Shown here piece by piece: positions 1,700 to 43,821 of a stretch of 64,000 nt of DNA. The DNA is from Chakrabartia godavariana (GTDB lineage Bacteria > Pseudomonadota > Alphaproteobacteria > Sphingomonadales > Sphingomonadaceae): NCBI GenBank assembly GCA_005518185.1, contig RKSN01000003.1:558001-622000 (forward strand), written 5' to 3'. A program made the translations under genes and the position numbers. Positions within the stretch are counted from its first letter, which is position 1. Every line of letters starts with the position of its first letter. The notes beneath the pieces are model-generated. The model made no database searches. It saw nothing but the letters and a program-made list of their open reading frames with translations, and was not told the DNA's origin.

Positions 1700-1701
1700 C
1701 C

Positions 1702-3876: not shown

Positions 3877-3894
3877 TAATCGCAGGAGCAATTG

Positions 3895-4389
3895 ATGACG
3901 GATACAACGCCGCGACTTGAACTTCCCTTTCTCTTTGCCGGACAGGCGCAGAAAGAACTGACGCACAACGAGGCGCTCCAGCGGATCGACTTATATGTGC
4001 AGGCGGTTGTCGAAGACCGCCGCGCAACCCCGCCGGCCGCGCCGCAGCCGGGGCAATGCTGGCTCGTCGATGCAGCGGCGGCGAGGGAATGGGCCGGACA
4101 GGACGGCGCAATTGTCCAGTGGACGGGCGGGGGCTGGCGTTATGCGGCCCCGTTTGAGGGGATGGCTGTGTGGCATCGTGCGCAGGGCCTCGCTTTGCGC
4201 CATATCGGCGGGGAATGGTCCGCGGCACTTTCCGTCACACAGGTGCGAATCGGAGGCAATCAGATCATAGGGGCGCGCCAGAGCGGCATTTCTGCGCCGT
4301 CCGGCGGGGCGATTGCGGATACGGAGTGCCGAACCGCCGTGGTGGCAATTCTGGCGGCTTTGCAAGCGCATGGGCTGATTGCAAACTAA
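3895..4389 (+). CDS. DUF2793 protein at the end of the GTA cluster
   Basis: This 164-residue protein has the DUF2793 signature 'LELPFLFAGQAQKELTHNEAL' (shortened here to its recognisable core: AGQAQKELTHNE), then 'PPAAPQPGQCWLVD' and 'YAAPFEGM'. The start is the ATG at 3895, preceded by AGGAG at 3884-3888; a TTG three bases upstream is unlikely. It lies 18 bases after g15 and is the last gene before a long gap and a new promoter region. From memory, DUF2793 proteins occur among GTA/phage fibre or head-spike components, so a surface-binding role is plausible. That is inference from family and position. Confidence 0.8.
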   Translation: MTDTTPRLELPFLFAGQAQKELTHNEALQRIDLYVQAVVEDRRATPPAAPQPGQCWLVDAAAAREWAGQDGAIVQWTGGGWRYAAPFEGMAVWHRAQGLALRHIGGEWSAALSVTQVRIGGNQIIGARQSGISAPSGGAIADTECRTAVVAILAALQAHGLIAN

Positions 4390-24996: not shown

Positions 24997-27498
24997 TTAG
25001 AACTTCACCGTGCCTTCCACGCCGATCAGGCGGCGTGTGCCGGGGGTGATGAACGATCCGCCGAACTCCACGGCAGTGATGACTTCGTTCAGATACTTCT
25101 TGTTGAACAGGTTGTTGGCGAAGACCGACAGACCGAAGCGATCACTCTGGACGCCCAGGCGGGCGTTGAAGATGCCGAACGCGTCGCGGCGGGCCACATC
25201 ATACTTGCCGTCACCGACAAAGGCCGGGAGCTGGAGCGCCGAGCCGGGCAGCAGGCCCGAGAACAGCGTCGGGATCGACTGGTTCTGCACGGTGTGGAAC
25301 CAGGTCGGGCCGGTCAGGCGATAGTCGGCGCGGCCGACGATTTTCAGGTCGTTGCTGAGCGGCTGTTCCAGATCGACGCCGACGTTGAGCGTGTAGTCGG
25401 CCGTATAGGGCGACTTGTTGCCCACCGTGTAGGGACGCGAGCTGTTCTTCTTGATCGAGCTGTCGGTGTAGTTGAACGACCCGAACAGCTTGACGCCCTG
25501 CACCGGCTTCACCGTGGCGGTGAGTTCTGCACCCTTCAGGTCGACACGGTCGATGTTCGACACCACGCGCAGCAGGCCGAAACCGCCGACGAAGAATTCG
25601 AAGAACTGCATGTTGTGGACCTGGGTGTAATAGCCCGCGAGGTCGAAGGTGACCGCGCCATCCGCCAAATTGCCCTTCACGCCGGCTTCGAACGCGCTCG
25701 ACCATTCCTTCTTATACTGGTCATCCACGCGCACATTGGCGCCGAAGAAGTTGACGAAGCTGTTGCGGATGAGCTGTGCCGACCCCTGGTTGTTGAAGCC
25801 GCCGGATTTGAACCCGATGCCCCAGTTGCCATAGATGTTGAGGTCGTCCGTCGGCTTGTAGCTGAGTGTGACCTTGGGCTCGAACTGCTTGAAGCTCGCG
25901 CTCTTCGGGGTCAACGCGCCGAATGCCTGGCCGGGGTTGATCGGACCGCCGGTGAACGGATCGGTCGCGGTCGGGACGAGCGAGGAGGACTTGCGGTCCT
26001 CAACGTCGTAACGCACCGCCAGCCCGGCATCGAACTTGTCATTGGGCTTCCATTCGAGCGACCCGAAGGCGGCGTAGACATTGGTGTTGAACCGGTCGGC
26101 GAGCAGCAGCGTCGTCGGGTTGGTCGAGGTCGGCGCGTTGTACAGCTCCTTGATGACGCCGTTGCCCGTGTCGCCGCCAAGGCTGACGCCCACGGTGCGC
26201 TTGATGTGCAGGTAATAGGCGCCGAGCTGCCAGTTGATCGATTCGCCTTCGCCCATCACGCGCCATTCGGTGCTGAAATCGGTCTGCTTGCGCAGCTGAT
26301 ACTGCGTGCCGTCACAGGTCGTCGGGCTGTAGGGGCCGAAGGTCGAGCCATTGGCGGGCGCGAAGATGAACGGCACCGGGATCTGCCCGATGAAGCCGGG
26401 CTGGTTGACCTTGTAGCCGGTGAGCGCGGCGGTGCTCGCAAAGCAAGCGTTGACCGTCGCCTGGCCCGCCGGGCTGGCGGCGCCGATGAAGCGGGCAAAG
26501 TCGGCCGAGGTGCCGTCGGCGACGAGATCCTGATCGACGTTCGAATAGAGCGCCCAGCCGACGAGCTTCAGGCTGTCGGACAGTTCGTGATCAAGCTTGA
26601 CCGAGAAGTCGAGGCTCGTCTGGTCGTTGGTCGGCCGGATGTTGCTGTAGAAGTTGAACGGGTGCTTGTTCACGTCTTCGTAGAAGGCAGGGTTCACCGC
26701 GCCGAAATTGGGCAGATGGAACGACGCGTTGAACGGCAGCGAGGCGCCGTGGAATTCGGCATAGCGCGCCTTCAGGTCAACCTGCGTCGGGCCGCCATCG
26801 CCGATCAGGACGCGGCCATCGACCGCCCAGTTCTGCTTGTCGTCGACCGTCTTCGAATCGGTGAAGACATTGCGGTAAAAGCCATCGGACTTGCTGGCAT
26901 AGCCCGACAGGACAAAGCCCGCGCCTGCGCCGAGCGGTCCGGCGATGTGCGCGGTCGTTTCCCAGGTGTTGTACTGGCCATAGGACAGCTTGGCAGCCCC
27001 GGTGAGCGTGTCCGTCGGCTTCAGCGTCTGGATGACGATGGCACCGGCGGCGGCGTTGCGGCCGTAAATGGCGCCCTGCGGACCCTTGAGCATTTCAACC
27101 TGGCGCAGCGTGCCCTGCGGCTGGTTGAGCTGCGCGGTGTTGGTCTTGAGGATGCCGTCCACGACGAGCGCGACCGAGCTTTCGGCGTCTCGCGCGCCGT
27201 TGATGCCGCGGATGTTGATCTGCGTGTCGCCCGCTTCGGCAGTGCCGGTCACGATGGTGACGCCCGGCGTCAGGCGGACAAAGTCTTCCGCCTTGGTGGC
27301 GCCCGTGCGGGCAATCGTGTCAGCCGTGAGGACCGCGACCGACGCCGGCACGTCCTGAAGCCGTTCGTTCTGGCGACGGGCCGTGACGATGATGGCTTCA
27401 CCGTCGTCCCCTTCGGCGGCGTTCTGCGCAAGGACCGGCGTTGCCGTCAACGCGACGGCACTGGCGGTGGAAGCAAGGATAAATCGGGAAAGACGCAT
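24997..27498 (-). CDS. TonB-dependent outer membrane receptor
   Basis: This 833-residue receptor has a signal peptide ('MRLSRFILASTASAVALTATPVLA' region, cleavage near 24), a TonB-box-like 'AIIVTARR', a plug domain (about 45-160, 'INIRGINGARDAESSVALVVDG', core RGINGARD) and a 22-stranded barrel that ends in Phe ('GVEGTVKF'). AGGGAGG lies just before the ATG at 27498. It would import a bulky or scarce substrate across the outer membrane. It is divergent from a GntR regulator, with a palindromic site in the shared promoter, so it is probably the uptake gene of the adjacent catabolic cluster. Frames extending upstream of 27498 are not receptor-like. Confidence 0.93.
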   Translation of the reverse strand: MRLSRFILASTASAVALTATPVLAQNAAEGDDGEAIIVTARRQNERLQDVPASVAVLTADTIARTGATKAEDFVRLTPGVTIVTGTAEAGDTQINIRGINGARDAESSVALVVDGILKTNTAQLNQPQGTLRQVEMLKGPQGAIYGRNAAAGAIVIQTLKPTDTLTGAAKLSYGQYNTWETTAHIAGPLGAGAGFVLSGYASKSDGFYRNVFTDSKTVDDKQNWAVDGRVLIGDGGPTQVDLKARYAEFHGASLPFNASFHLPNFGAVNPAFYEDVNKHPFNFYSNIRPTNDQTSLDFSVKLDHELSDSLKLVGWALYSNVDQDLVADGTSADFARFIGAASPAGQATVNACFASTAALTGYKVNQPGFIGQIPVPFIFAPANGSTFGPYSPTTCDGTQYQLRKQTDFSTEWRVMGEGESINWQLGAYYLHIKRTVGVSLGGDTGNGVIKELYNAPTSTNPTTLLLADRFNTNVYAAFGSLEWKPNDKFDAGLAVRYDVEDRKSSSLVPTATDPFTGGPINPGQAFGALTPKSASFKQFEPKVTLSYKPTDDLNIYGNWGIGFKSGGFNNQGSAQLIRNSFVNFFGANVRVDDQYKKEWSSAFEAGVKGNLADGAVTFDLAGYYTQVHNMQFFEFFVGGFGLLRVVSNIDRVDLKGAELTATVKPVQGVKLFGSFNYTDSSIKKNSSRPYTVGNKSPYTADYTLNVGVDLEQPLSNDLKIVGRADYRLTGPTWFHTVQNQSIPTLFSGLLPGSALQLPAFVGDGKYDVARRDAFGIFNARLGVQSDRFGLSVFANNLFNKKYLNEVITAVEFGGSFITPGTRRLIGVEGTVKF

Positions 27499-27597
27499 TT
27501 TAACCTCCCTGTAAGGTAATCCGGATCGTTGCCGGACATGGGTTCTTGAGCCGCGCTGTTGGTGTCCTCGTGCGACAGGCGACTTGATGCGGCAAAG

Positions 27598-27626
27598 AGA
27601 TAATGTATACAAATAGCTACGGTCAA
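27598..27626 (-). promoter_or_regulatory. Candidate sigma-70 promoter of the TonB receptor
   Basis: On the minus strand TTGACC (27626-27621) and TTATCT (27603-27598) are separated by exactly 17 bases, in good position for the receptor gene that starts at 27498. The palindrome at 27604-27611 occupies the spacer directly next to the -10 box. Confidence 0.65.
27604..27611. promoter_or_regulatory. Candidate GntR operator 1 (TGTATACA)
   Basis: The perfect 8-bp palindrome TGTATACA has A/T-rich flanks (AATGTATACAAA). It lies in the spacer of the receptor promoter. On the plus strand its TATACA part would be the -10 box of the regulator, with TTGATG at 27584-27589 sixteen bases upstream. FadR-subfamily GntR proteins often bind TTGTATACAA-like sites. 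A bound repressor would block both genes. Confidence 0.6.
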
Positions 27627-27642
27627 GCTTTTTGGAGTCTCC

Positions 27643-28317
27643 ATGTCCCGCGCTTCCGATCGCGCTTACGATGTCATCCGCAACATGATCCTGTCGGGCG
27701 AACTCCCGGCGGGCGCGCAGCTTGTGGAAGAGGCGCTGGCCGAGAAATGCGGGGTTTCGCGCACACCGGTCCGCGAGGCGATGCGGCGGCTCGAATCGGA
27801 TCTTCTGGTCACGCGCACCGACACGCAGCGCAGCTTCGTGGCGGACTGGTCCCTTGACGATGTGGCCGATGCGTTTGAGCTGCGCGCCATGCTGGAAGGG
27901 CAGGCCGCCCGCCGCGCGGCCGAGCGCATGACCGATGCCGCGCTGGAACGCATCCGCGCCGCCAATCGCCAGATCGGCATCGCGATCGGCAAGCCGTCCC
28001 CCGATGTGGCCGGATTTCTTGAGGGAAACCGGGAGTTTCACGCCGTCATCCTCGAAGTGGCGGGCTCGCGCCGGCTGGCCTCGCTGCTCGTGACTCTGGT
28101 CGAACAGCCGGTCGTCTGGCGGACTGCGTACCATTATGGGCGCGAGGAATTGCGCCGCTCACATAATGAGCATGATGAGCTGATCGCGGCCTTTGCGCGC
28201 CGCGACGGTGCCTGGGCGGCCGCGATCATGACCAGCCACATCCTGCGCGCCTACCATGCCTATGCCGATGCGCATGGCGGCTTTGCCGAGCAGATGCATC
28301 GGGAGGCGGCCGAATAA
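27643..28317 (+). CDS. GntR-family transcriptional regulator, FCD (FadR-type) subfamily
   Basis: This 224-residue regulator has an N-terminal winged helix (about 5-75: 'YDVIRNMILSGELPAGAQL', 'LAEKCGVSRTPVREAMRRLE') and an all-helical FCD ligand-binding domain (about 80-220). The metal-ligand positions of FCD proteins are visible as 'FHAVI', 'HNEHDEL' and 'SHILRAYH'. Such proteins respond to carboxylic acid ligands. It is divergent from the TonB receptor and its stop overlaps the start of the lyase gene (TAATG). TGTATACA occurs at both control points, so it most likely represses itself, the receptor and the catabolic operon. The ligand is unknown. Confidence 0.93.
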   Translation: MSRASDRAYDVIRNMILSGELPAGAQLVEEALAEKCGVSRTPVREAMRRLESDLLVTRTDTQRSFVADWSLDDVADAFELRAMLEGQAARRAAERMTDAALERIRAANRQIGIAIGKPSPDVAGFLEGNREFHAVILEVAGSRRLASLLVTLVEQPVVWRTAYHYGREELRRSHNEHDELIAAFARRDGAWAAAIMTSHILRAYHAYADAHGGFAEQMHREAAE

Positions 28318-29225
28318 TGTATACAGAAACGATTGAAATGGTGGAGGTCGCGCCGCGCGACGGCCTCCAGAACGAAAAGAGGCTGATTGAAACGGCGGAC
28401 AAGATCGCGCTTGTTGACCGCGCGCTGGCCGCCGGTGTCCGGCGGATCGAGGTGACAAGCTTCGTCAATCCCAAGGCTGTCCCGCAAATGGCCGATGCCG
28501 AAGCCGTGTGCGCGGGCCTGCCGGAGCGCGACGACGTGACCTATATCGGTCTCGTCATGAACGCGCGCGGGGCGCACCGCGCACTCGCCACAGGCCGCAT
28601 TGATCAGCTGGGCGCGGTCGCTGTCGCCACCGATCAGTTCGCCATGGCCAATCAGGGCCAGACGAGCGACGGTTCGGTCGAGGCTGCGAAGGAGATCATC
28701 GCGCTGTCACAGGCGGCGGGCAAGACCGGGCAGGTGACCATCGGCGCGTCCTTCGGCTGCCCGTTCGAGGGCGAGGTGGCGGAGGACCGTGTCGTTGCGA
28801 TGGCGGCGGCGCTGGCTGAAGCCGGGCCGGTTGAAATCGGACTTGCCGACACGATCGGCGTCGGCAACCCGGCGCATGTGGCCTCGCTTGTGGGCAAGGT
28901 GCGCGCCGCTGTGCCGCACGTGCCCGTCCGGGTTCATTTCCACAACACGCGTGGTACGGGGCTCGCCAATGTGTGGGCCGCCATTGGCGCAGGCGCGCGC
29001 GTTGTCGACGCGTCGATCGGCGGGCTGGGCGGCTGCCCGTTCGCGCCGGGGGCGGCGGGCAATGTCTCGACCGAGGACGTCGTCTACATGCTCGAGCGCG
29101 CCGGCGTGCACACCGGGCTTGATCTTTCCGCGCTCGTTTCGGCCAACCACTGGCTGGGCGAGGTCATGCAACGCACACTTCCGGGAATGGTGCCCAAGGC
29201 GCCCGCATTCCCCAAACAGGCATAA
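28317..29225 (+). CDS. HMG-CoA lyase family enzyme (hydroxymethylglutaryl-CoA lyase type)
   Basis: This 302-residue TIM-barrel lyase of the HMGL/DRE-TIM family shows 'VEVAPRDGLQNEKRLI' at the N-terminus (catalytic Arg and metal-binding Asp in PRDGLQNE). It also has 'HFHNTRGTG' (metal His) and the HMG-CoA lyase Cys loop 'GLGGCPFAPGAAGNVSTED' (core GGCPFAPGA). The family cleaves 3-hydroxy-3-methylglutaryl-CoA or related 3-hydroxyacyl-CoA to an acyl-CoA and an oxoacid. It opens the operon with a one-base overlap with the regulator and is followed by hydantoinase-type genes, so the true substrate may be a pathway-specific hydroxyacyl-CoA and not leucine-derived HMG-CoA. Confidence 0.88.
   Translation: MYTETIEMVEVAPRDGLQNEKRLIETADKIALVDRALAAGVRRIEVTSFVNPKAVPQMADAEAVCAGLPERDDVTYIGLVMNARGAHRALATGRIDQLGAVAVATDQFAMANQGQTSDGSVEAAKEIIALSQAAGKTGQVTIGASFGCPFEGEVAEDRVVAMAAALAEAGPVEIGLADTIGVGNPAHVASLVGKVRAAVPHVPVRVHFHNTRGTGLANVWAAIGAGARVVDASIGGLGGCPFAPGAAGNVSTEDVVYMLERAGVHTGLDLSALVSANHWLGEVMQRTLPGMVPKAPAFPKQA
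28318..28325. promoter_or_regulatory. Candidate GntR operator 2 (TGTATACA) at the lyase start codon
   Basis: A second exact copy of TGTATACA overlaps the start codon of the HMG-CoA-lyase-family gene (A-TG-TAT-ACA at 28317-28325), again with AA on its left. It could act as a roadblock to transcription running from the regulator gene into the operon. Confidence 0.45.
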
Positions 29226-29243
29226 CAGAAGGACTTTGAATCG

Positions 29244-31292
29244 ATGGGATATCGTTTGGGGGTGGATGTCGGCGGCACCTTTACCGACCTCTTGCTGTTC
29301 AACACCGAAACCGGGGCCTTCTGGCGGCACAAGACGCCGTCGACGCCGCATGACAGTTCCGAAGGCATTCTGAACGGTGTGACGGCGATCTGCGCCAATG
29401 CCGGTGTCACGCCCGGCCAGATCGACTATTTCCTCCACGGAACGACGGTTGCGACCAATGCGGTGCTCGAAGGCAAGGGTGCCAAGGTGGGCCTCGTCAC
29501 GACCGAGGGCTATCGCGACATCATGCAGATCGCGCGCAGCTTCGTGCCCGGCGGTCTCGCGGCCTGGATCATCTGGCCCAAGCCGCAGCCGCTTGCCGCG
29601 CTGGAGAACACCGTCACCGTCAAGGGCCGCATGAATGCGGACGGGCAGGAAGTCCGCCCGCTCGATGAGGCCGATGTACGCAACCAGCTTGGCATCCTGA
29701 AGGCGAAGGGCGTCGAGGCGGTCACCGTCAGCCTGATCAACGCCTATGCCAATGGCGCGCACGAAGCGCGGATCGGCCAGATCGCGGCCGAAATCCTGCC
29801 CGGCGTGCCGGTGTCGCTGAGCCATGAGGTCCTGCCCGAAATGCAGGAATATGAACGCACGCTCACCACGGTGGCGAACGCTTCGGTCCGGCCGGTCGTC
29901 GGCAAATATGTCGCCAATCTGCGCAACCGTCTGGCGACCGAGGGCATGACCGGAAAGCTTTCGCTGCTCCGGTCGGATGGCGGCCTGATGAGCGCCGAAA
30001 AGGCCGAGGAGCATCCGGTCAACATCCTGATGTCGGGCCCCGCAGGCGGCGTGACCGGCGCCATCTGGGTCGGCCGCAATGCGGGCATCAAGAATATCCT
30101 GACGCTCGACGTCGGCGGCACCAGCACCGACGTGGCGCTGATCGAAAATCTCGAGCCGCGCCGCCAGCGTACGACCGAGGTCGGCCATCTGTCCGTGCGC
30201 GCCTCCGCGCTCGACGTGAAGACGGTGGGCGCAGGCGGCGGATCGATCGCTTATGTGCCCGAACTGACCAAGGCGCTGCGCGTCGGGCCGCAGAGCGCAG
30301 GCGCCGTTCCCGGCCCTGTCGCTTATGGCAAGGGCGGCACCGCGCCGACCGTGACCGACGCCAATGTCGTCCTTGGCTATCTGCCTGAAAACCTGTTGGG
30401 CGGGACGTTCCAGCTCGACCGTGAAGGCGCCAAGGCGGCGGTGCAGACGATTGCCGATGCACTCGGCATCGACCTGATGGCGGCGGCACGTGGCATCATC
30501 GACATCGTCAATGAAAACATGTTCGGCGCACTGCGCATGATCTCGGTCCAGCAGGGTTATGATCCGCGCGACTTTGCCGTGATGGGTTTTGGCGGCGCCG
30601 GGCCGCTCCACGTCAATGCGGTCGCCAAACTGATGGGCAGCTGGCCCGCCATTTCGCCGGTCAGCCCGGGCGTGCTGTGCGCGCTTGGCGATGCGACGAC
30701 GCGGATGCGGACCGAAACGGCCCGCTCCTGGTCGCGCCTTGCACAGGACACCAAGCCGGAAGATCTGGTCGCCGTGCTCGCTGAAATGGCGACGCAGGTG
30801 ACGGGCGAGCTTCTGTCGGACGGTGTGCCCGAAGCCGAGATCACGACTGCGTTCGAAGTCGATGTCCGCTATGCCGGACAGGCGTTCGAAGTGCCGCTGA
30901 CGATCACGCCGGACCTGCTGGCGGCCGAAGGTATTGCCGGCATCCTCGCCCGCTTTGACGAGGAGCACAAACGCCTCTTCACCTTCAACATGGATACCCC
31001 GCACGAGATCGTGAACCTGCGCGCCGTTGCGCTGGGCCGCGCGCTCGATCTGCCGGCGGCCCCTCTCGAACAGGGCAACGGCGATCCGTCGGCGGCCAAG
31101 CTGCGCGATCACGTCCTCTGGATGGACGGGCGCGAACAGGCGGCGGTCATCTATGACCGCGCCAAGCTGAAGGCAGGTGACGTCATCCCCGGCCCGGCCA
31201 TCGTCTGCGAGATGGACTCGACCACACTCATCGAATCCGACTGCGTCGGCACTGTCGACGCTGTCGGCAACATCCTCATCAACCTGGCCTGA
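29244..31292 (+). CDS. Hydantoinase/oxoprolinase A subunit (ATP-dependent cyclic amidase)
   Basis: This 682-residue protein has the N-terminal hydantoinase/oxoprolinase fold with the ASKHA phosphate motif 'GVDVGGTFTD' (residues 6-15), 'HGTTVATNAVLEGKGA', and a second domain with 'LTLDVGGTSTDVALI' and 'GAGGGSIAYV'. With the B subunit it forms enzymes that use ATP to hydrolyse cyclic amides, such as 5-oxoprolinase, N-methylhydantoinase and caprolactamase, or that carboxylate ketones, such as acetone and acetophenone carboxylases. The downstream B gene starts 17 bases later. The next genes argue for a cyclic amide or imide, but the family cannot be assigned to one substrate from sequence alone. 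Confidence 0.9.
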   Translation: MGYRLGVDVGGTFTDLLLFNTETGAFWRHKTPSTPHDSSEGILNGVTAICANAGVTPGQIDYFLHGTTVATNAVLEGKGAKVGLVTTEGYRDIMQIARSFVPGGLAAWIIWPKPQPLAALENTVTVKGRMNADGQEVRPLDEADVRNQLGILKAKGVEAVTVSLINAYANGAHEARIGQIAAEILPGVPVSLSHEVLPEMQEYERTLTTVANASVRPVVGKYVANLRNRLATEGMTGKLSLLRSDGGLMSAEKAEEHPVNILMSGPAGGVTGAIWVGRNAGIKNILTLDVGGTSTDVALIENLEPRRQRTTEVGHLSVRASALDVKTVGAGGGSIAYVPELTKALRVGPQSAGAVPGPVAYGKGGTAPTVTDANVVLGYLPENLLGGTFQLDREGAKAAVQTIADALGIDLMAAARGIIDIVNENMFGALRMISVQQGYDPRDFAVMGFGGAGPLHVNAVAKLMGSWPAISPVSPGVLCALGDATTRMRTETARSWSRLAQDTKPEDLVAVLAEMATQVTGELLSDGVPEAEITTAFEVDVRYAGQAFEVPLTITPDLLAAEGIAGILARFDEEHKRLFTFNMDTPHEIVNLRAVALGRALDLPAAPLEQGNGDPSAAKLRDHVLWMDGREQAAVIYDRAKLKAGDVIPGPAIVCEMDSTTLIESDCVGTVDAVGNILINLA

Positions 31293-31309
31293 CGGAAGGG
31301 ACCACAACC

Positions 31310-33196
31310 ATGGCTGCAACCATCGTTCAGACCAACACCAAGCCTTTCGAGAAGGTGGCCATCGATCCGGTCACGCTCGACATCATCGAAAACGCGCTGC
31401 GCAATGCCCGTGTCGAAATGGACGCGACGCTCGTGCGCACCGCCATGTCGCCGGGCATCCGCGAACAGGGCGACGCCTTTCCGCTGATTGCCGACCATAC
31501 CGGCAAGATGATCGTCGGCCAGTTCGGCAGCTTCATCGGCGGCTTCCTCGACAATTATGAAGGCACGCTGGAAGACGGCGACATGATCTTCCTGTCCGAT
31601 CCCTATTCGGTCGGCGGGGCGGTCAGCCATTCCAACGACTGGCTCGTACTTCTGCCCGTGTTCAAGGATGGCCGCCTGATCGCCTATACCTCGATGTTCG
31701 GCCACCAGTCCGACATTGGCGGCAAGGTCGTCGGCTCGATGCCGATCAACGCGCGGTCGATCTACGAGGAAGGCGTCCGCATTCCGCCCGTCAAGATCTG
31801 GAAGAAGGGCGAGTATAATGATGATCTGATGAAGCTCGTCATGCACCAGACCCGCAAGCCGGACTGGTGCGCGGCGGATCTGAACGCGCTCATCGCCTCA
31901 TGCCGGGTCGCGGCGCGTCGCGTCGTCGAAATGGCCGCGCGCTTTGGCGACGATGTCTATGTCTCGGCCACGCAGGAACTGCTGGCGCGCAACCACCGCG
32001 CGATGAAGACCCTCCTTTCTCAGGCGGTCAGCGAAGAGCCGGTCAGTTTTGAGGATTATATCTGCGACGACGGCATGGGCTTTGGCCCCTACCGCATCAA
32101 GTGCACGATGCGCCGCGAAGGTGAGGTCGTCATCCTCGATTTCGACGGCACCGACCCGCAGTCGATCGCCTCGATCAACTTCTATCTGAACGAGAACATG
32201 TTCAAGATGTTCTTCGGGATCTACATGATCATGGTCTTCGACCCGCAGATCCTGTTCAACGACGGCTTCTATGATCTGATCGACGTTCGGATTCCGGAAG
32301 GCTCGCTGCTGAAGCCGAAATTCCCGGCAGCGCTTTCGGGCCGCACCCATGCGCTGGGCCGCATCTTCGACATTCTGGGCGGCCTGCTCGGCCAGAAGAC
32401 GCCGGAGTTCCTGAACGCCGCCGGCTTCTCCTCCAGCCCGCACCTCTTCTATTCGGGCAATGACCAGCGTCCCGGCAAGGGCAATGCCTGGTTCCAGCTG
32501 TTCCAGATCGGCTTTGGCGGCATTCCGGGGCGTCCCCTGGGCGACGGGCCGGACGGCCACTCGCTCTGGCCGGGCTTCACCAACGTGCCCAACGAGTTTC
32601 TGGAACGCTACTTCCCGATGATGATCGAGCGCTATGAGACCGAGCCGGACTCGGGCGGGGCGGGCCTGCATCGCGGCGGCAATGGCATTCACATGACCTA
32701 TCGCTTCCTCTCGCCCGGCACGATCTCGATCCACGACGACCGCTGGTTCGTGCCGCCCTGGGGCGTGAATGGCGGTGAACCGGGCAAGCGCGCCCGCAAG
32801 ATCCTCGAAAAGGCGGATGGCACGCAGATCATCATCGCCAACAAGGTCGAGGATGTGGACGTCGAGGTCGATGACCAGCTGCACTTCATCACCTGGGGTG
32901 GCGGTGGCTGGGGCGATCCGCTGGAGCGCGATCCGGCGCTGGTCGCGCTGGAGATTGTGCAGGGGCTCGTCACGCCGGAGGGCGCACGCGCTTATGGCGT
33001 GGTGGTGGACGCCAGTGGCACCGTTGATGCGGCGGCCACCGAAAAGCTGCGCGCCGAGATGCGTACGACGCGCGGGCCGCTCGCGCTGTTCAACGCCGGG
33101 CCGGGCATCGAGACGCTGCGCGCGAATTGCGCCGCGGAAACCGGCCTGCCCGCCCCCGTCCAGCCCGTCTGGAAGCATCTGGAGGCGGCGGAGTGA
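31310..33196 (+). CDS. Hydantoinase/oxoprolinase B subunit
   Basis: This 628-residue protein begins 'IDPVTLDIIENALRNARVEM' (core PVTLDIIENAL), the hydantoinase B signature. It contains 'GQFGSFIGGFLDN', 'DFDGTDPQ' and, near the end, 'TWGGGGWGDPLERDP', the Gly-rich C-terminal motif of the family. This subunit carries the hydrolytic or carboxylation chemistry after ATP activation by A. Separate A and B genes are usual for bacterial hydantoinases and lactamases, whereas eukaryotic 5-oxoprolinase is one fused chain. GGAAGGG lies before the ATG. The last bases overlap or adjoin the CoA-transferase gene. Confidence 0.9.
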   Translation: MAATIVQTNTKPFEKVAIDPVTLDIIENALRNARVEMDATLVRTAMSPGIREQGDAFPLIADHTGKMIVGQFGSFIGGFLDNYEGTLEDGDMIFLSDPYSVGGAVSHSNDWLVLLPVFKDGRLIAYTSMFGHQSDIGGKVVGSMPINARSIYEEGVRIPPVKIWKKGEYNDDLMKLVMHQTRKPDWCAADLNALIASCRVAARRVVEMAARFGDDVYVSATQELLARNHRAMKTLLSQAVSEEPVSFEDYICDDGMGFGPYRIKCTMRREGEVVILDFDGTDPQSIASINFYLNENMFKMFFGIYMIMVFDPQILFNDGFYDLIDVRIPEGSLLKPKFPAALSGRTHALGRIFDILGGLLGQKTPEFLNAAGFSSSPHLFYSGNDQRPGKGNAWFQLFQIGFGGIPGRPLGDGPDGHSLWPGFTNVPNEFLERYFPMMIERYETEPDSGGAGLHRGGNGIHMTYRFLSPGTISIHDDRWFVPPWGVNGGEPGKRARKILEKADGTQIIIANKVEDVDVEVDDQLHFITWGGGGWGDPLERDPALVALEIVQGLVTPEGARAYGVVVDASGTVDAAATEKLRAEMRTTRGPLALFNAGPGIETLRANCAAETGLPAPVQPVWKHLEAAE

Positions 33197-33201
33197 CAGC
33201 C

Positions 33202-34389
33202 ATGAACACGGGGGCTTTGCGCGACATTCGGGTCGTCGAACTCGGCCAGCTGCTTGCCGGGCCGTTCTGCGGCCAGCTGCTGGGTGATATGGGCGCCGAC
33301 GTGATCAAGGTCGAACCGCCGGTCACGGGGGACCCCATGCGTGAATGGGGGCAGGGTGCCGAAAAGGTGCAATGGGAAGTCATTGCCCGCAACAAGCGCT
33401 CGGTCAGCGCCAATCTGCGCGTGCCCGAAGGGCAGGCGCTGGTGAAGCGGCTGATCGCCCATGCCGATGTCCTCATCGAGAACTTCAAGCCCGGCACGAT
33501 GGAGAAATGGGGCCTTGGCCCCGACGTCCTTCTGGCCGAATTCCCCGGTCTCATCATCGCGCGCATGTCCGGCTATGGGCAGACCGGCCCCTATTCGGAC
33601 CGCGCGGGCTTTGGCGGGATCGGCGAAGCGATGGGCGGCTGGCGCTACATCGTCGGGGAACCGGACCGGCCGCCGAGCCGCATGGGCATCTCGATCGGCG
33701 ATACGCTGACGGCGACCTATGGCTGCATGGGCGTGCTCGCCGCGCTGCATGAGCGGGAGCGTTCCGGGCGCGGGCAGGTCATCGATGCGGCGCTCTATGA
33801 AAGCGTGCTGCAGGTCATGGAAGGGCTCGTGCCCGAATATGACCGCATGGGCCTGATCCGTGAACGGTCCGGCTCGGTGCTGAAGGGCATTGCCCCGTCC
33901 AACGTCTACAGCTGCAAGGACGGTGAGTTCATGATCGGCGCCAACAAGGACTCGCTGTGGAAGCGGCTGGCCGAGGCCATGGGCCGTCCCGAACTCGGCG
34001 ATGATCCGCGCTATGCAACGCATCTGGCGCGCGGCGAAAATCAGGACGAGCTCGACGCCCTCATCAACGACTGGACGAAGACGCTGACCGTTGATGAGGT
34101 CGATGCGCTGATGATCGACTATTCGATCCCGGCGGGCCGCGTCTACCGCGCGCCGGACATGATCGCCGACCCGCATTTCCAGGCGCGCGACGCGATCATC
34201 GAGGTGGAGACCGAACGCTTCGGGCCGCTCAAGATGCAGTCGAGCTTCCCCAAATTTTCGGCCACCCCCGGCAGCGTTCGGCGCCCGGCGCCGTCCAGGG
34301 TGGGGCAGCACAATGCCGAAATCTATGGCGAGCTGCTCGGCCTTGAAGCCGCAGAGCTGGCGGCGATGGCGGACAAGGGGATCATCTGA
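33202..34389 (+). CDS. Class III CoA-transferase (CaiB/BaiF family)
   Basis: This 395-residue protein begins 'LRDIRVVELGQLLAGPFCGQ' (core VVELGQLLAGPF) and has 'LGDMGADVIKVEPP', 'NKRSVSANLRVPEG' and 'GRGQVIDAALYESV'. The Asp of 'ISIGDTLTA' occupies the position of the catalytic Asp that forms the acyl anhydride in formyl-CoA transferase. It moves CoA between carboxylic acids. Two starts are possible: ATG at 33202 (chosen, canonical N-terminus) or GTG at 33193, which overlaps the previous stop by four bases. In this operon it probably activates the ring-opened or hydroxylated acid for the HMG-CoA-lyase-type enzyme. Confidence 0.9.
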   Translation: MNTGALRDIRVVELGQLLAGPFCGQLLGDMGADVIKVEPPVTGDPMREWGQGAEKVQWEVIARNKRSVSANLRVPEGQALVKRLIAHADVLIENFKPGTMEKWGLGPDVLLAEFPGLIIARMSGYGQTGPYSDRAGFGGIGEAMGGWRYIVGEPDRPPSRMGISIGDTLTATYGCMGVLAALHERERSGRGQVIDAALYESVLQVMEGLVPEYDRMGLIRERSGSVLKGIAPSNVYSCKDGEFMIGANKDSLWKRLAEAMGRPELGDDPRYATHLARGENQDELDALINDWTKTLTVDEVDALMIDYSIPAGRVYRAPDMIADPHFQARDAIIEVETERFGPLKMQSSFPKFSATPGSVRRPAPSRVGQHNAEIYGELLGLEAAELAAMADKGII

Positions 34390-35033
34390 TGGCGCGTCCG
34401 GAGGATGATCTCGGGGCCAATTATGCGGGGGCCTTTGATGGCACCCTGCCCTTTGGCGCGCGCCCGGCGCTGATCGTTATCGACCTTGTGGAGGCCTATC
34501 TCCAGCCCGGATCGCCGCTTTATGCCGGGATTGAACCCGCGCTCGACAGCGCGGTGCGGCTGGTGGCGGCGGCGCGGGCGGCGGGTATTCCGGTCATCTT
34601 CACCAATGTCGCCTATCAGAAGGGGGGCGCCGATGGCGGCGTCTTCTTCCGCAAGATTCCGGCGCTCAAGGTGTTCGAAGAAGGCTCCCCGCTCGGGGCG
34701 TTCCCGGCCGTGCTCAGCCCGCAGGTTGGCGATCTCGTCATTACCAAGCGCTATGCCTCGGCCTTTTTCGCGACGCATCTGGCCGCGACGCTGACCGCGC
34801 ACGGCATCGACACGGTCATGCTGTGCGGCACCTCAACGTCAGGCTGCGTGCGCGCGACCGCGCTCGATGCCTGCCAGCACGGCTTTGTGCCCTATGTCGT
34901 CCGCGATGCCTGTGGCGACCGGCACGCTGGCCCGCATGAGGCCAATCTGTTCGACATGCAGGCGAAGTTCGCCGAAGTCGTGAGCGAGGCGCAGGCGATC
35001 GACCTGCTCAGGCCAGCACCTTCCCGGGATTGA
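34389..35033 (+). CDS. Cysteine hydrolase, isochorismatase family (N-carbamoylsarcosine amidohydrolase-like)
   Basis: This 214-residue protein has the catalytic triad of the amidohydrolase branch of the isochorismatase fold: Asp32 in 'LIVIDLVEAY', Lys120 in 'VITKRYASAF' and Cys153 in 'TSTSGCVRATA'. Members hydrolyse N-carbamoyl amino acids, maleamate, nicotinamide or similar amides. The start overlaps the preceding stop by one base (TGATG) and the 3' end overlaps the convergent dehydrogenase gene by 26 bases. Coupling with hydantoinase A/B is what is seen in creatinine/N-methylhydantoin degradation, so an N-carbamoyl or half-amide product of the cyclic amidase is a plausible substrate. Confidence 0.9.
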   Translation: MARPEDDLGANYAGAFDGTLPFGARPALIVIDLVEAYLQPGSPLYAGIEPALDSAVRLVAAARAAGIPVIFTNVAYQKGGADGGVFFRKIPALKVFEEGSPLGAFPAVLSPQVGDLVITKRYASAFFATHLAATLTAHGIDTVMLCGTSTSGCVRATALDACQHGFVPYVVRDACGDRHAGPHEANLFDMQAKFAEVVSEAQAIDLLRPAPSRD

Positions 35034-36381
35034 GAAGCCCCAGCGGATCGAACGCCGCCTTCAGGCGACGCATCGTTGCAATCTCGTCGGCCGAGCGCGA
35101 GAGGTGGAGGAAGTCCTTCTTGTGCAGGCCAATGCCATGTTCGGCGGAGATCGACCCGTCGAGCGCGGTCGCGACCTCATAGACAGCCTCCTCGACCGCC
35201 AGCAGATCGTCCGGGCCAAAGCCGCCCGCGATCAAATGGACATTGCCGTCGCAGACATGGCCGAAATAGATTTGCGTCGTGCCCGGCCAGCGCGCTTCAA
35301 GGGAGGCGGTGCAATTCTCGACAAACGCACCGATGCGGCTCGTCGGCACGCTGATGTCGAAATTGCCGACGGGGTTGAACGCCTGAATGAGTTCACCCCC
35401 CATGTCGCGCACCGCCCAGATGGCGCGCGTCTGCTGGACCGACTGGGCGAGCACGGCATCGGCGGCGATGCCCTGTTCAAACGCGGCCTCCAGAAAGGCG
35501 GCCAATTCGGCTTCGGCCTGTTCGCCCGAGGACGAGACTTCGGTGATGACATAGCCGCCCGCACCCGGCGCGAGCGGCGGCGGGGCCGCCTGCTTGGCGG
35601 CGGCGCGGACATAGAATTCGGGCCACATCACCTCAAAGGCCGACAGGCTGTCGCCCAGCCGTTCGCGCGCTAGCCCGAGAAAGCGCTCGATTGCGGCATA
35701 ATCGGCAAAGCTGGCGAGCGAGGTTGCGACGCTGCGTGGTTTGGGGGCCATGCGCAGCACGACGCGCGTGATGAGGCCCAACGTCCCTTCGCTGCCGATG
35801 AAGACCTGCTTCAGGTCATAGGCGGCGTTGTTCTTGAGCATCTGGTTCATGGAAGAGACGATGGTGCCGTCGGCCAGCACGGCCTCAAGCCCGAGCACCA
35901 TCGCGCGCGCCATCCCGTATCTGAGGACCCGGTTCCCGCCGGCATTGGTGGAGAGGTTGCCCCCGATCTGGCAGGTGCCGCGCGACCCGATGTCGAGCGG
36001 GAAGAGCATGCCCGCGTCGTCCGCCGCGATCTGGATGGCCTCCAGCGGAACGCCCGCCTGCGTGGTCAACGTCTGCGACACTGCGTCGACGGCTTCGATC
36101 TTGTTCATCCGCTCCATCGAGATGAGCAGCGCGCCGTCATCGGGCACCGTGCCGCCGGTCAGCCCGGTCAACCCACCCTGCGGGACGACGGGAATGCGGT
36201 GTGCCGTTGCGATCCGGAGCGCGTCCGACACCTCCTGCGTGGAGCGCGGCCGGAACAGCGCGAGGGGCCGCACGCCGGGTGCGGCGCGCATCAGCCAGTC
36301 GCCGAAATACTTCTCGCTGATCTCGGTCTCGGGCGGATTGTCGGGGAAGGCCGCGACCAAGGCGTCAAGGGCGGATGACAT
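35008..36381 (-). CDS. FAD-linked 2-hydroxyacid dehydrogenase (GlcD/D-2-hydroxyglutarate dehydrogenase type)
   Basis: This 457-residue flavoprotein of the VAO/PCMH fold has 'PVVPQGGLTGLTGGTVPDDG' (core PQGGLTGLTGG), 'GMLFPLDIGSRGTCQIGGNLSTNAGG' (core IGGNLSTNAGG, FAD pyrophosphate site) and a C-terminal cap ending 'EHGIGLHKKDFL..AFDPLGLLNPGKVL'. The family oxidises D-lactate, glycolate or D-2-hydroxyglutarate to 2-oxoacids. The start at 36381 ('MSSALDALVAAFP') is divergent from the Rieske oxygenase, and the 3' end overlaps the isochorismatase-type gene by 26 bases. It could produce a 2-oxoacid for the benzoylformate-decarboxylase-type enzyme at 41905-43461; that is inference. Confidence 0.9.
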   Translation of the reverse strand: MSSALDALVAAFPDNPPETEISEKYFGDWLMRAAPGVRPLALFRPRSTQEVSDALRIATAHRIPVVPQGGLTGLTGGTVPDDGALLISMERMNKIEAVDAVSQTLTTQAGVPLEAIQIAADDAGMLFPLDIGSRGTCQIGGNLSTNAGGNRVLRYGMARAMVLGLEAVLADGTIVSSMNQMLKNNAAYDLKQVFIGSEGTLGLITRVVLRMAPKPRSVATSLASFADYAAIERFLGLARERLGDSLSAFEVMWPEFYVRAAAKQAAPPPLAPGAGGYVITEVSSSGEQAEAELAAFLEAAFEQGIAADAVLAQSVQQTRAIWAVRDMGGELIQAFNPVGNFDISVPTSRIGAFVENCTASLEARWPGTTQIYFGHVCDGNVHLIAGGFGPDDLLAVEEAVYEVATALDGSISAEHGIGLHKKDFLHLSRSADEIATMRRLKAAFDPLGLLNPGKVLA

Positions 36382-36445
36382 GGTGGCTGACTCTCCCAAT
36401 TCGTATGTGTCGCGTACTATTGCGCTTCCGCCATTCAAGCCTAAG

Positions 36446-37804
36446 ATGCAAGCCATGATATGGGAAGAGGTGAGGGGCCTTGTCGATGATCGCGTCGACG
36501 ACGGCTGGTTCAGCGTGGACCGTCGCGCATTCACGGCGCAGGAGGTCTTTGACCTTGAGATGCGGCACGTCTTCGAAGGCGGCTGGGTCTTTCTCGGCAT
36601 GGCGAGCCAGCTGCCCAACCCGCACGACTATCTGACCACCACCGTCGGGCGCGTGCCCGTGGTCGTCATGCGCGATGGCGAGGGGAAACTCGGCGCCTAT
36701 ATCAACGCCTGCACGCACAAGGGCGCGCTGATCTGTCACAAGCGCACGGGCAGTGGGCGGTTGCATGTCTGCCGCTATCACAGCTGGAGCTTTGACAGTG
36801 CGGGCAGGAATGTCGCGGTCAAGGCGATGAAGGACGGCGCCTACTCGGACGCATTCAAGGCGTTTGACCGCAACCTTGTCCGCCTTGCCGCCTTCGCCGA
36901 TTATCGCGGCTTCCTGTTCGGCAGTCTGGTTGAGACCTGTTCGATCGAAGAGCATCTGGGTGAGGCGCGCCACATGCTCGACCTTGCCGCCGATCAGGGC
37001 GAGGACGGGCTGGAACTGGTGCCGGGCGAAGTCATCTTCACCTATGACGGCAACTGGAAACTCCAGCTCGAAAACTGCGCCGACGCCTATCACTTCACCT
37101 CCGCGCATCCGTCCTATCTCCAGCTCGTCGAGAAGCGCAGGCGCGAGGAGAAGGCCAATTCGGTCAAGTCGGTCTGGGGCGAGAATTCGGCCTGGAGCGA
37201 GATGACCGAGGGCGTCACCGGCGGCACCTACGCCTTTGAGCAGGGCCATGTCGTCAACTGGCAGATCATCCCCTTGAGCGACACCGTGCCGCTGGCCGAC
37301 CGTGCCGAGATCCTCGCCGCGCGCCACGGCGAGAAGCGCCGCGACTGGATGGTCAATATGCGCAACGTGACGATCTTTCCCAACATGCAGATCGCCGAGA
37401 ATGCGTCGAGCCAGCTGCGCATCATCCGGCCCATTGCGCCGGGCCTGACCGAGATGCGCACCTTCTGCATCGCACCCAAGGGGGAAAGCGCCGAAGCGCG
37501 GCGGATGCGCATCCGCAATTATGAGGATTTCTTCAATCCGACCGGCATGGCGACACCCGATGACACGATCTGCTACGCCGATTGTCAGGATGGCCACGCG
37601 AACCCGATGCAGTCTTGGATTCTCGGCTATTCCCGCGGCATGACGAGCGTGCAGCAAGGCGCGGATGAATTCGCCGAAGTGCTCGACATGACGCCTGACC
37701 GCAGCCAGCCCTGCGGATCGCAGCTCTGCGACGAAACGCTGTTCCACAGTTACTACCGCGCCTGGCTCGGGCGGCTGAAGGCCGGCATGGAGCGCGACGC
37801 ATGA
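36446..37804 (+). CDS. Rieske aromatic-ring-hydroxylating oxygenase, alpha subunit
   Basis: This 452-residue protein contains a Rieske [2Fe-2S] site, Cys89-x-His91 and Cys109-x2-His112 (17 residues between). The mononuclear iron site has Asp213, His216 and His221 in 'ENCADAYHFTSAHP'. The segment 'NWKLQLENCADAYH' is typical of benzoate/anthranilate/toluate-type dioxygenases, which also use a separate small beta subunit, and that subunit follows. Starts at 36446 or 36455 are both possible; neither has a strong ribosome site. No ferredoxin or reductase gene is seen nearby, so electrons must come from elsewhere. The substrate is unknown. Confidence 0.93.
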   Translation: MQAMIWEEVRGLVDDRVDDGWFSVDRRAFTAQEVFDLEMRHVFEGGWVFLGMASQLPNPHDYLTTTVGRVPVVVMRDGEGKLGAYINACTHKGALICHKRTGSGRLHVCRYHSWSFDSAGRNVAVKAMKDGAYSDAFKAFDRNLVRLAAFADYRGFLFGSLVETCSIEEHLGEARHMLDLAADQGEDGLELVPGEVIFTYDGNWKLQLENCADAYHFTSAHPSYLQLVEKRRREEKANSVKSVWGENSAWSEMTEGVTGGTYAFEQGHVVNWQIIPLSDTVPLADRAEILAARHGEKRRDWMVNMRNVTIFPNMQIAENASSQLRIIRPIAPGLTEMRTFCIAPKGESAEARRMRIRNYEDFFNPTGMATPDDTICYADCQDGHANPMQSWILGYSRGMTSVQQGADEFAEVLDMTPDRSQPCGSQLCDETLFHSYYRAWLGRLKAGMERDA

Positions 37805-38280
37805 TCACGCGCGCTGAGGCGGAAGACCTGATCGCCCGCGAAAGTCTGGCGCTCGACCGGCGGGACTGGGACGGGTGGCTGTCGCTCTTCACCGAGGACT
37901 GTTCCTACTGGATGCCCGCCTGGCGCGACGAGGAAAACCCGACCGAAGACCCGCAGAGCGAGCTGTCGCTGATCTGGTATCAGGGGCGGCACAATCTGGA
38001 AGACCGCGTGTGGCGCGTGAAGTCGGGCCTGTCGGTCGCGTCGGTGCCGCTCATGCGGACCTCGCACCATGTGTCCAACATATTGGTCGAGGGTGCGGAC
38101 CGCGTGGCGGCGAGCTTTGCGGTCCATGTCCACAATGCGAAGCGTCGGGCGGACCATGTCTTCTTCGGGCGCTACGAATACCGTCTCGTGCGCGAGGGCG
38201 ATGCGCTGAAGATTGCCGAGAAGAAGATCCTGCTGATGAACGATTACATCCCGGCGGTGGCTGATTTTTATATGCTGTGA
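37801..38280 (+). CDS. Aromatic-ring-hydroxylating oxygenase, beta subunit
   Basis: This 159-residue protein is the small subunit with the SnoaL/NTF2-like cone fold. It has 'EAEDLIARESLALDRRDWDGWLSLFTED' (core LDRRDWDGWLSLF) at the N-terminus, 'RTSHHVSNI' in the middle and 'LLMNDYIPAVADFYML' at the end. It has a structural role in the alpha3beta3 oxygenase. The start overlaps the alpha subunit stop by four bases (ATGA). The two subunits form one operon that ends here before a repeat region. Confidence 0.92.
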   Translation: MITRAEAEDLIARESLALDRRDWDGWLSLFTEDCSYWMPAWRDEENPTEDPQSELSLIWYQGRHNLEDRVWRVKSGLSVASVPLMRTSHHVSNILVEGADRVAASFAVHVHNAKRRADHVFFGRYEYRLVREGDALKIAEKKILLMNDYIPAVADFYML

Positions 38281-38589
38281 GTGGCGCAGCCAAGTGCGCC
38301 TTCAAACACCCGTCGCCCCGTGCTTGACACGGGGCTGGGCTAAGCTCCGTCCGATCTAAGTCCTCCGCTTGCCAGACACCTTCCCGTCCGGACGTCTCGC
38401 AATCCGGGCACCATGCCCAGCAGCAAAGCACCAGAAAAGCCAAGCCCCGTGTCAAGCACGGGGCGACCGAGACTCTGATGACGTTGGAGCGGCCCCCAGC
38501 CACCTGCATTGGTATTCACACCCCTTGAGATAGGCGGCGCGGACGCTAGGCTCATGGTGCGCCGCACAAATGGCGCCGGAGGATCGGGG
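38281..38589. repeat. 309-base gap with a perfect 25-bp inverted repeat
   Basis: Positions 38312-38336 and 38443-38467 are perfect inverted copies (25 of 25). Each is itself a hairpin with CCCCGTG and CACGGGG arms. The space between (38337-38442) has no convincing gene. The ribosome site GGAGGAT of the next gene is at 38578-38584. Nothing else is visible in the gap. Confidence 0.8.
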
Positions 38590-41367: not shown

Positions 41368-41390
41368 GACATTTGTCCTCCCCATCTGCT

Positions 41391-41492
41391 CGCCCTGAGC
41401 TTGTCGAGCCGAAGGCGACCGAAGGTCAACGGTGGTTCTTTCTGGACCCAGAGCTTCGAGGAACTGTAAGGGCGGTCCTTCGACAAGCTCAG
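41391..41492. repeat. Inverted pair of CTTGTCGA-type intergenic repeats
   Basis: A unit containing CCCTGAGCTTGTCGAG at 41393-41408 is matched by the inverted CTTCGACAAGCTCAG at 41478-41492. This is a widespread repeat type in proteobacterial genomes. About 70 bases lie between the two units. They stand downstream of the PEPC-like gene and upstream of an AT-richer gene. Confidence 0.75.
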
Positions 41493-41569
41493 CACAAACG
41501 GAGAGTTGTTTTGTAATTGCCGTTGTCCAAGAACGATTGCAAACTTCGGACTTGATCAGGGGGTGATGC

Positions 41570-41908
41570 ATGCTCGTTTTTTGGTGGCAAGGTAAAGGCT
41601 ATTTCACGTTTCTAATTGGCCTTGCCTCATTGGCCGCATTTGGAGTGCTGCAAGCCGCTGCTGAACCGTATGTTCCGGATGAACCTTGGTATTGGGGATT
41701 GGCATTTGGCGTTGCAGCCGTCCTGAATTGGATGAAGGGATCAGCGCTTAACCAAAAACGAATTGAGCGACGCCAGCCGACGACAATTCGTTCGAGATTG
41801 TTTTACAACGCGGTGCACCGGTCGATGTCCCTGCCGATGGAAACCTTCTCCATTGTCTTCGGCTTGATCGGGCTCGTGCTCGTCGTGCAAAGTCTGCGCG
41901 CAATCTAA
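41570..41908 (+). CDS. Small membrane protein of unknown function, AT-richer than neighbours
   Basis: This 112-residue protein has three hydrophobic segments (about 5-30, 40-55 and 90-110) around a basic middle 'LNQKRIERRQPTTIRSR'. I recognise no family. Codons are visibly AT-richer (for example TTT, AAA, GAA, TTG and CAA) than those of the genes on both sides, which suggests foreign origin or weak selection. GGGGG at 41560-41564 is a weak ribosome site. Its stop shares four bases (CTAA, 41905-41908) with the convergent decarboxylase gene. Confidence 0.6.
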   Translation: MLVFWWQGKGYFTFLIGLASLAAFGVLQAAAEPYVPDEPWYWGLAFGVAAVLNWMKGSALNQKRIERRQPTTIRSRLFYNAVHRSMSLPMETFSIVFGLIGLVLVVQSLRAI

Positions 41909-43461: not shown

Positions 43462-43532
43462 GGGGCAGTCGATCCTCTCTTCGGGCCTGATGGCATGATG
43501 TGCGCCGCTCTGCCAGTTTGAACCCGGAAAGT

Positions 43533-43735
43533 TTCACGCGGAGACGCGGAGGCGCGGAGAAGGGAACCAACTGTGTGCTCCGGACTTGATCCGGAGCCTA
43601 GGGGTGAATCGCTGCAACTTTGGTCCCTCGACTTCGCTCGGGACGAACAGAAATTTGTTCCTCCTCCGCGTCTCCGCGTGAACGTGTCTGTTGTGAAGCA
43701 GGTGGCCCTAGGCTCCGGATCAAGTCCGGAGCACA
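43533..43735. repeat. Composite inverted-repeat mosaic upstream of rlmN
   Basis: Within a 360-base gap (43462-43821) lie two perfect inverted pairs: 43533-43552 with 43663-43682 (20 bp), and 43574-43603 with 43706-43735 (30 bp). A 22-base palindromic unit at 43623-43644 stands between them. A further partial unit is near 43755-43775. No gene is visible in the gap. The same unit types recur after rlmN. Confidence 0.85.
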
Positions 43736-43821
43736 GCTCGGGGGAGCCCTGCGTTCTTTGCGTCTCCGCGCGAATCCCGCAAACCTAGCCTTTCCGCCCG
43801 ACTCGCCCTATATGCGCGGCC

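Follow-up and report, generated by a model that had tools for sequence, protein, structure and literature searches.

The window analysed here is a stretch of 64,000 nucleotides from Chakrabartia godavariana (contig RKSN01000003.1; genome size 3.17 Mb). It carries a compact operon of six genes on the plus strand, GntR-HMGL-HydA-HydB-CaiB-amidase (27643-35033), divergent from the gene of a TonB-dependent receptor (Table 1). HydA and HydB are the subunits of a hydantoinase/oxoprolinase-type enzyme, and HydB is the only gene of its family (PF02538) in the genome. In the core of the operon (28317-35033), the gaps between successive genes were -1, 18, 17, 5 and -1 bp. We describe below how the operon is conserved and what substrate it may serve.

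Table 1 Genes and regulatory site at the locus. Positions refer to the window.
Feature	Position	Strand	Basis or remark
TonB-dependent receptor	24997-27498	-	Pfam Plug + TonB_dep_Rec_b-barrel; start corrected
Probable GntR operator, palindrome ATGTATACAA	27603-27612	none	Between TonB and GntR genes
GntR-FCD family regulator, leading gene of the operon	27643-28317	+	Pfam GntR + FCD; kept beside cluster in relatives
HMGL, 3-hydroxy-3-methylglutaryl-CoA (HMG-CoA) lyase-type (DRE-TIM) lyase	28317-29225	+	Pfam HMGL-like; NCBIfam NF004283 over cut-off
HydA, ATP-binding subunit, hydantoinase/oxoprolinase-type	29244-31292	+	Pfam Hydant_A_N, Hydantoinase_A, Hydant_A_C
HydB	31310-33196	+	Pfam Hydantoinase_B (PF02538)
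CaiB, class III (CaiB/SUGCT-like) CoA-transferase	33202-34389	+	Pfam CoA_transf_3
Isochorismatase-fold amidase	34389-35033	+	Pfam Isochorismatase
FAD-linked 2-hydroxyacid dehydrogenase (GlcD-like; FAD-oxidase)	35008-36381	-	Pfam FAD_binding_4 + FAD-oxidase_C
Rieske oxygenase alpha	36455-37804	+	Pfam; NCBIfam BenAB/AntAB-like, under equivalog cut-offs
Rieske oxygenase beta	37801-38280	+	Pfam; NCBIfam BenAB/AntAB-like, under equivalog cut-offs
Phosphoenolpyruvate (PEP) carboxylase	38509-41367		Between Rieske pair and BFD
Benzoylformate decarboxylase (BFD)	41905-43461	-	NCBIfam NF005485, 817 bits vs cut-off 493

All ten gene families named in an initial annotation of this DNA were present, each well over its curated Pfam cut-off, and in the places given there, with coordinates corrected. 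The tight spacing of the core operon, also noted there, was confirmed. The FAD gene and the Rieske pair had been counted to the same contiguous set, but the 13 kb are not one transcription unit, because the FAD gene runs towards the operon on the opposite strand and shares 26 bp with its end, and the Rieske pair points away from the FAD gene. The description as an 'island' was not supported either, since the 3' end of the neighbouring tRNA-Phe is not repeated anywhere in the window, and no integrase was found among the window genes that were classed (some small open reading frames lay outside that classing).

Conservation was assessed by scanning contigs with HydB, which kept 80 loci (83-96% identity) among 349 relatives, the titles shown being all Sphingomonadales. 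The window proteins were mapped onto these 80 loci and onto 40 further loci from Sphingomonadales genomes. Counts out of 57 below refer to contig-scan loci with adequate flanks and counts out of 39 to further Sphingomonadales loci. HydA, HydB, CaiB and HMGL occurred together in all 57, and the TonB and GntR genes each in 56; the TonB gene was also found in 26/39. The amidase was near HydB in 45/57 loci and missing in 12. Of the co-occurrence that the initial annotation had proposed to check, this bears out HydAB, CaiB, HMGL and the amidase, but not the Rieske gene (1/57) or the FAD gene. In other Sphingomonadales families the gene order was reshuffled, with the amidase and CaiB shifting place and strand while remaining near.

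HydB matches fell into two groups, one at 58-100% identity (with contig-end fragments and a single match at 50%), the other at ~31%, a drop that makes the HydB clade well bounded. The clade was present in 13 of 398 genomes sampled across the phylum and 30 of 385 across the class. Outside the Sphingomonadales, it was found with its partners on a Geobacillus plasmid and in Acidiphilium, Rubrobacter and haloarchaea. The six-gene operon is common to many water and soil bacteria, and partly to archaea.

Two variations on the cluster were seen among the relatives (L numbers are our locus labels). In 16/57 and 8/39 loci, the cluster was accompanied by a hydantoin-racemase-family gene (Rac); together with two tandem SnoaL-like genes it stood between the TonB and GntR genes in L057 (4426-6013) and also in L082, L112, L113, L117 and others. 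Plasmids of Sphingomonas sp. JE1 and Sphingobium sp. TomTYG65 carried HydAB paralogues (L122 4680-14416, L123 1-9737) beside a fumarate-reductase-like flavoprotein, an FAD oxidase, a zinc dehydrogenase and an aldehyde dehydrogenase, without amidase or CaiB. These paralogues perhaps act on a different substrate.

A palindromic consensus, TTGTATACAA, was found in 38 of 42 homologous TonB-GntR intergenic regions. Within the 64 kb, the window copy, ATGTATACAA, was alone in matching the consensus with no more than one mismatch; the chance mean was 0.17. In some relatives the HMGL operon is detached from GntR, and there a second copy of TTGTATACAA stands just before HMGL (in L057, operator copy at 6953-6962 and HMGL at 7015). 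We infer from this pattern that TTGTATACAA is the putative GntR operator. Between the FAD and Rieske genes, where their promoter region lies, there was no copy. The placement of the operator matches the limits of the module drawn from phylogeny. Elsewhere in the window genome, a second site (C4:60815) was rejected; its region has no clear promoter arrangement, and it looks like chance.

The Rieske pair, the FAD gene and the decarboxylase form a separate, neighbouring aromatic module and are not part of the conserved hydantoinase module. The Rieske alpha gene was near the cluster in only one of the 57 loci (L056) and in 0/39, 0/9, 0/12 and 0/20 loci of other samples. Matches to it at E<=1e-80 were present in 20 of 299 Sphingomonadales genomes. 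Nine Rieske regions were fetched; five (L144-L148) showed BFD followed by Rieske alpha and beta, an order shared with L056, and none contained HydAB. A close copy of the FAD gene stood beside the cluster only in L003 (94%), with weak, distant matches in 3/39 loci. The nearest relative, L002, lacks the segments corresponding to window positions 34380-38432 and 41366-43807 but keeps the hydantoinase operon; in L003, the FAD gene is kept along with the first part of the Rieske gene, and the amidase is absent. Near-absence at relatives, the Rieske pair's own operon with BFD, the lack of an operator copy and the state of L002 together speak against the Rieske and FAD genes as parts of the pathway to which the initial annotation had assigned them. 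Against benzoate 1,2-dioxygenase, the pair stayed below the equivalog cut-offs (alpha 403 of 781 bits, beta 142 of 226). In the window, BFD lies on the other strand and is split from the Rieske pair by the PEP carboxylase gene, whereas elsewhere they form one operon.

The three HydA domains (N, A and C) and the HydB domain lie in adjacent genes, as in the hydantoinase/oxoprolinase family (Pfam). HydA keeps both ATP-motif aspartates, Asp8 and Asp289, in DVGGTFTD and DVGGTSTD motifs. Its best curated NCBIfam model was caprolactamase alpha, under the cut-off (541 of 1000 bits); HydB scored 215 of 1000 bits against curated CapB, so the pair does not qualify as a CapAB equivalog. Caprolactamase needs an Asp-His-Asp-His metal tetrad, D41/H99/D102/H124 in CapB (PMC8453981). 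This tetrad corresponds to D55/H107/D110/H132 in HydB; the first three residues were present in 143/143 sequences and H132 in 136/143. HydAB is predicted to be an ATP-dependent, ring-opening amidohydrolase.

The triad of the amidase, D32-K120-C153, was invariant in 108/108 sequences, which places it in the isochorismatase superfamily. Its tail motif PHEANLFD (window, GDRHAGPHEANLFDM) agrees with that of 3ot4 (GDRALGPHEANLFDM) and nearly with that of 4l07, but not with that of 1nba. We take 3ot4 (NicF type) and 4l07 (Hpo type) to be maleamate amidohydrolases and 1nba to be the N-carbamoylsarcosine enzyme. On these motifs, a half-amide (maleamate-type) amidohydrolase is predicted.

CaiB matched CoA_transf_3 over its full length (416 bits, 1-366/366) and is a class III CoA-transferase. 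The closest NCBIfam model was succinate-glutarate CoA-transferase, under its cut-off, and no single equivalog cut-off was reached; PDB relatives include succinate-hydroxymethylglutarate CoA-transferase 9br7. CaiB is predicted to load CoA onto a dicarboxylate. HMGL belongs to the HMG-CoA lyase PRK05692 subfamily (306 bits, cut-off 246), and its PRDGLQNE and Cys-loop motifs are retained in most relatives. Its predicted reaction is the retro-Claisen cleavage of a 2-alkylmalyl-CoA.

Distant relatives contain further enzymes. The gene order on the Geobacillus plasmid is amidase, HydA, HydB, CaiB, HMGL, LeuC, LeuD. An alphaproteobacterial locus (L162) holds HydA, HydB, a lyase, LeuC, LeuD and the amidase all together. 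Of 80 loci outside the Novosphingobium-type set, 14 had LeuC inside the flank fetched (binomial P 4e-12, from a rough p = 0.0135 per locus and ignoring the relatedness of the loci). In all 11 LeuC-bearing genomes checked, the cluster LeuC was an extra copy beside the housekeeping leuC. On haloarchaeal plasmids, HydA, HydB and the amidase are followed by a single lyase of the isocitrate lyase (ICL)/PEP mutase (PEPM) family, with 2,3-dimethylmalate lyase 3fa3 as the best PDB match of this type. Some haloarchaea have CaiB and a LeuA/citramalate-synthase-like protein beside HydA-HydB-amidase. In L140 (4230-6539) and L141 (11757-14066), this protein adjoins CaiB where bacteria have HMGL, which suggests a synthase-family enzyme running in the cleavage direction.

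We propose that the operon serves the catabolism of a cyclic imide taken up by the TonB receptor, likeliest a substituted maleimide or succinimide, and give this reading about an even chance of being right. It was chosen because HydAB and the amidase fit a ring that yields an acid amide, and because LeuCD, the lyase, CaiB and HMGL fit alkylmaleate or alkylmalate. The substrate, the order of the steps and the direction of regulation are what we infer from gene content. The divergent TonB receptor is likely the importer of the operon substrate and would bring in the imide. HydA/HydB would spend ATP on activating one ring carbonyl, and the ring would open at the HydB metal site to a half-amide, from which the amidase would free ammonia to leave a dicarboxylate. 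An unsaturated acid would be hydrated to an alkylmalate by an isopropylmalate-isomerase-like hydratase, which may be the dedicated LeuCD in distant relatives. In the window genome, the single housekeeping LeuCD might do this, or the ring might already be hydroxylated at the start. CaiB would then load the alkylmalate with CoA, and cleavage of the alkylmalyl-CoA by the HMGL-type lyase would yield an acyl-CoA (acetyl-CoA where the carbon bears no substituent) and a 2-oxoacid, as in an isopropylmalate/citramalate-synthase type reaction run backwards. In distant relatives, a dimethylmalate-lyase-like enzyme could replace CaiB and HMGL and cleave the alkylmalate to an acid and a 2-oxoacid. GntR would repress the operon through TTGTATACAA. 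The pathway first suggested for the locus is retained here in its ATP-dependent cyclic-amide opening, CoA transfer and C-C cleavage (HydA+HydB+CaiB+HMGL 57/57, amidase 45/57), and loses its oxygenase.

Several observations weigh against the imide proposal. The top solved relative of the amidase was 26st, which is named N-carbamoylsarcosine amidohydrolase (167 bits), and 3ot4 came next (147 bits). Neither of the two closest relatives, L002 and L003, has the amidase at the expected position, and 12/57 loci are without it, so it may be non-essential. None of the 57 Novosphingobium-type clusters has LeuCD and the window genome holds one leuC, so that the hydration step is unexplained there; the binomial test on LeuC also takes no account of how the loci are related. 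Because HMGL passes the HMG-CoA-lyase subfamily cut-off, plain HMG-CoA chemistry is possible. Finally, many relatives carry Rac beside the cluster, though both of its catalytic cysteines are replaced, by Thr and Ser.

The strongest alternative, though an unlikely one, is a hydantoin route, in the style of creatinine/N-methylhydantoin breakdown or of hyuABCE in Pseudomonas NS671. HydAB would open a 5-substituted or N-methyl hydantoin and the amidase would remove the carbamoyl group, with CaiB and HMGL degrading the skeleton after deamination elsewhere. The PDB match of the amidase points this way, as do the name N-carbamoylsarcosine amidohydrolase given to the amidase in Novosphingobium capsulatum, the closest solved relative of HydB, N-methylhydantoinase 7hk5, and the recurrence of Rac. 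No deaminase or transaminase recurs among the loci. An imide is more probable than the hydantoin/N-carbamoyl option of the initial annotation, since the enzymes added in distant relatives, LeuCD or one like dimethylmalate lyase, act on dicarboxylates, not amino acids; CaiB and HMGL likewise work on dicarboxylates. Rac as the key to the pathway was rejected, being without both catalytic cysteines; a search of the window genome, run without a positive control, returned no Rac match.

Somewhat more doubtful is a lactam or oxindole route resembling anaerobic indoleacetate breakdown, with its IaaCE hydantoinase and IaaL CoA-transferase, or caprolactam breakdown. Here HydAB would open a gamma- or delta-lactam bearing a tertiary hydroxyl and a carboxylate, CaiB would make the CoA ester and HMGL would split it. 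The caprolactamase-alpha score of HydA and the need of HMGL for a 3-hydroxyacyl-CoA are consistent with this, and IaaCE is a hydantoinase-like lactam hydrolase (PMC8453981). Opening a lactam would yield an amino acid, however, and leave the recurrent amidase without a role. The aerobic iad pathway of auxin degradation works with other enzymes: the gene set published for it encodes a Rieske oxygenase, a CoA ligase of the AMP-forming type, a thiolase, a dehydrogenase and an annotated kynurenine formamidase, in a text without 'hydantoin' or 'lyase' (PMC12633357). We rejected iad as an identity for the locus, as no hydantoinase is named for it (PMC12633357, PMC10374108, PMC11630574) and the gene sets differ, the hydantoinase module having no iad ligase or thiolase genes.

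An integrated pathway is improbable. In it, the Rieske oxygenase would make the cyclic amide, or would handle an aromatic product of the lyase by way of arylglyoxylate and the decarboxylase. The Rieske pair and BFD do lie near the cluster in the window and in L056, differently arranged, and an aryl-substituted ring would be expected to give arylglyoxylate, a benzoylformate-type 2-oxoacid, after the lyase step. The absence of Rieske genes from the four other samples, the Rieske-BFD operons without HydAB in L144-L148, the lack of an operator at the Rieske promoter region and the loss of the whole segment from L002 all speak against it. Least probable is a ketone carboxylase, with an ATP-dependent HydAB like acetophenone or acetone carboxylase and CaiB and HMGL processing the product: HydA and HydB are homologous to ApcC/ApcA and ApcD, and carboxylation yields an acid needing CoA, but the Apc models scored far under their cut-offs and much below caprolactamase and hydantoinase, the operon showed no counterpart of the additional small acetone carboxylase subunit, and the recurrent amidase would go unexplained.

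The proposed imide module shares parts with several known systems. Like CapAB of Pseudomonas jessenii and the hydantoinase/5-oxoprolinase family, it has two subunits, with ATP motifs in HydA and the metal tetrad in HydB; unlike CapAB, whose context is a transaminase route and whose CapA and CapB cut-offs are not reached, it includes an amidase, a CoA-transferase and a lyase. Creatinine breakdown also combines an ATP-dependent HydAB (N-methylhydantoinase) with an isochorismatase-fold amidase (N-carbamoylsarcosine amidohydrolase), but the operon adds CaiB and HMGL, its distant relatives add LeuCD or a dimethylmalate-lyase-like enzyme, and its amidase tail is maleamate-amidohydrolase-like, not as in 1nba. 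The amidase has the fold, the triad and the PHEANLFD/PHEASLYD motif in common with 3ot4 and 4l07, although the maleamate in their pathways derives from pyridine cleavage and not from an imide. The dimethylmaleate branch of nicotinate fermentation comprises dimethylmaleate hydratase DmdAB and 2,3-dimethylmalate lyase. It is alike in having an aconitase/LeuCD-type hydratase and then an ICL/PEPM-family lyase act on alkylmalates, but is not known to include ATP-dependent ring opening by HydAB or the CaiB-HMGL alternative. In the anaerobic indoleacetate pathway (IaaCE, IaaL), a hydantoinase-like lactam opening is likewise followed by a class III CoA-transferase; that pathway is not known to include HMGL, an amidase or LeuCD.

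No paper pairing hydantoinase with HMG-CoA lyase, isochorismatase, isopropylmalate or maleimide was found in open-licence full texts. Nor was a description of the module found in that literature (the initial annotation, too, had known of no described pathway with the full set), and the module is apparently an undescribed, widespread variant of hydantoinase-based catabolism. It occurs in a large share of sphingomonads and in archaea, without a described substrate found in the same literature. A bolder and quite unlikely extension is that it serves, across domains from Sphingomonadales and other Pseudomonadota through Geobacillus and Rubrobacter to haloarchaea, to degrade natural alkylmaleimides (e.g., methylethylmaleimide or hematinic imide from chlorophyll, haem and bilin oxidation). 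The imide would be opened with ATP, with two interchangeable endings, namely alkylmalyl-CoA cleavage by CaiB and HMGL-type enzymes or direct cleavage by a dimethylmalate-lyase-like enzyme. Should a tetrapyrrole-derived maleimide be the substrate, the module would close a gap in natural pigment turnover; with another substrate, it would still show the hydantoinase family in a new role. The prediction can be tested with a few purified enzymes, by ATP-dependent imide opening, deamidation and alkylmalate cleavage.

Some minor features of the window are recorded here. The tRNA-Asp that ARAGORN placed at 28978-29060, within the HMGL gene, is probably spurious. At 1702-3876, there is a gene for a gene-transfer-agent or phage tail protein (Rcc01698 C-terminal and Phage-tail_3 domains), and the small open reading frames at 68-4389 adjoin and agree with it.

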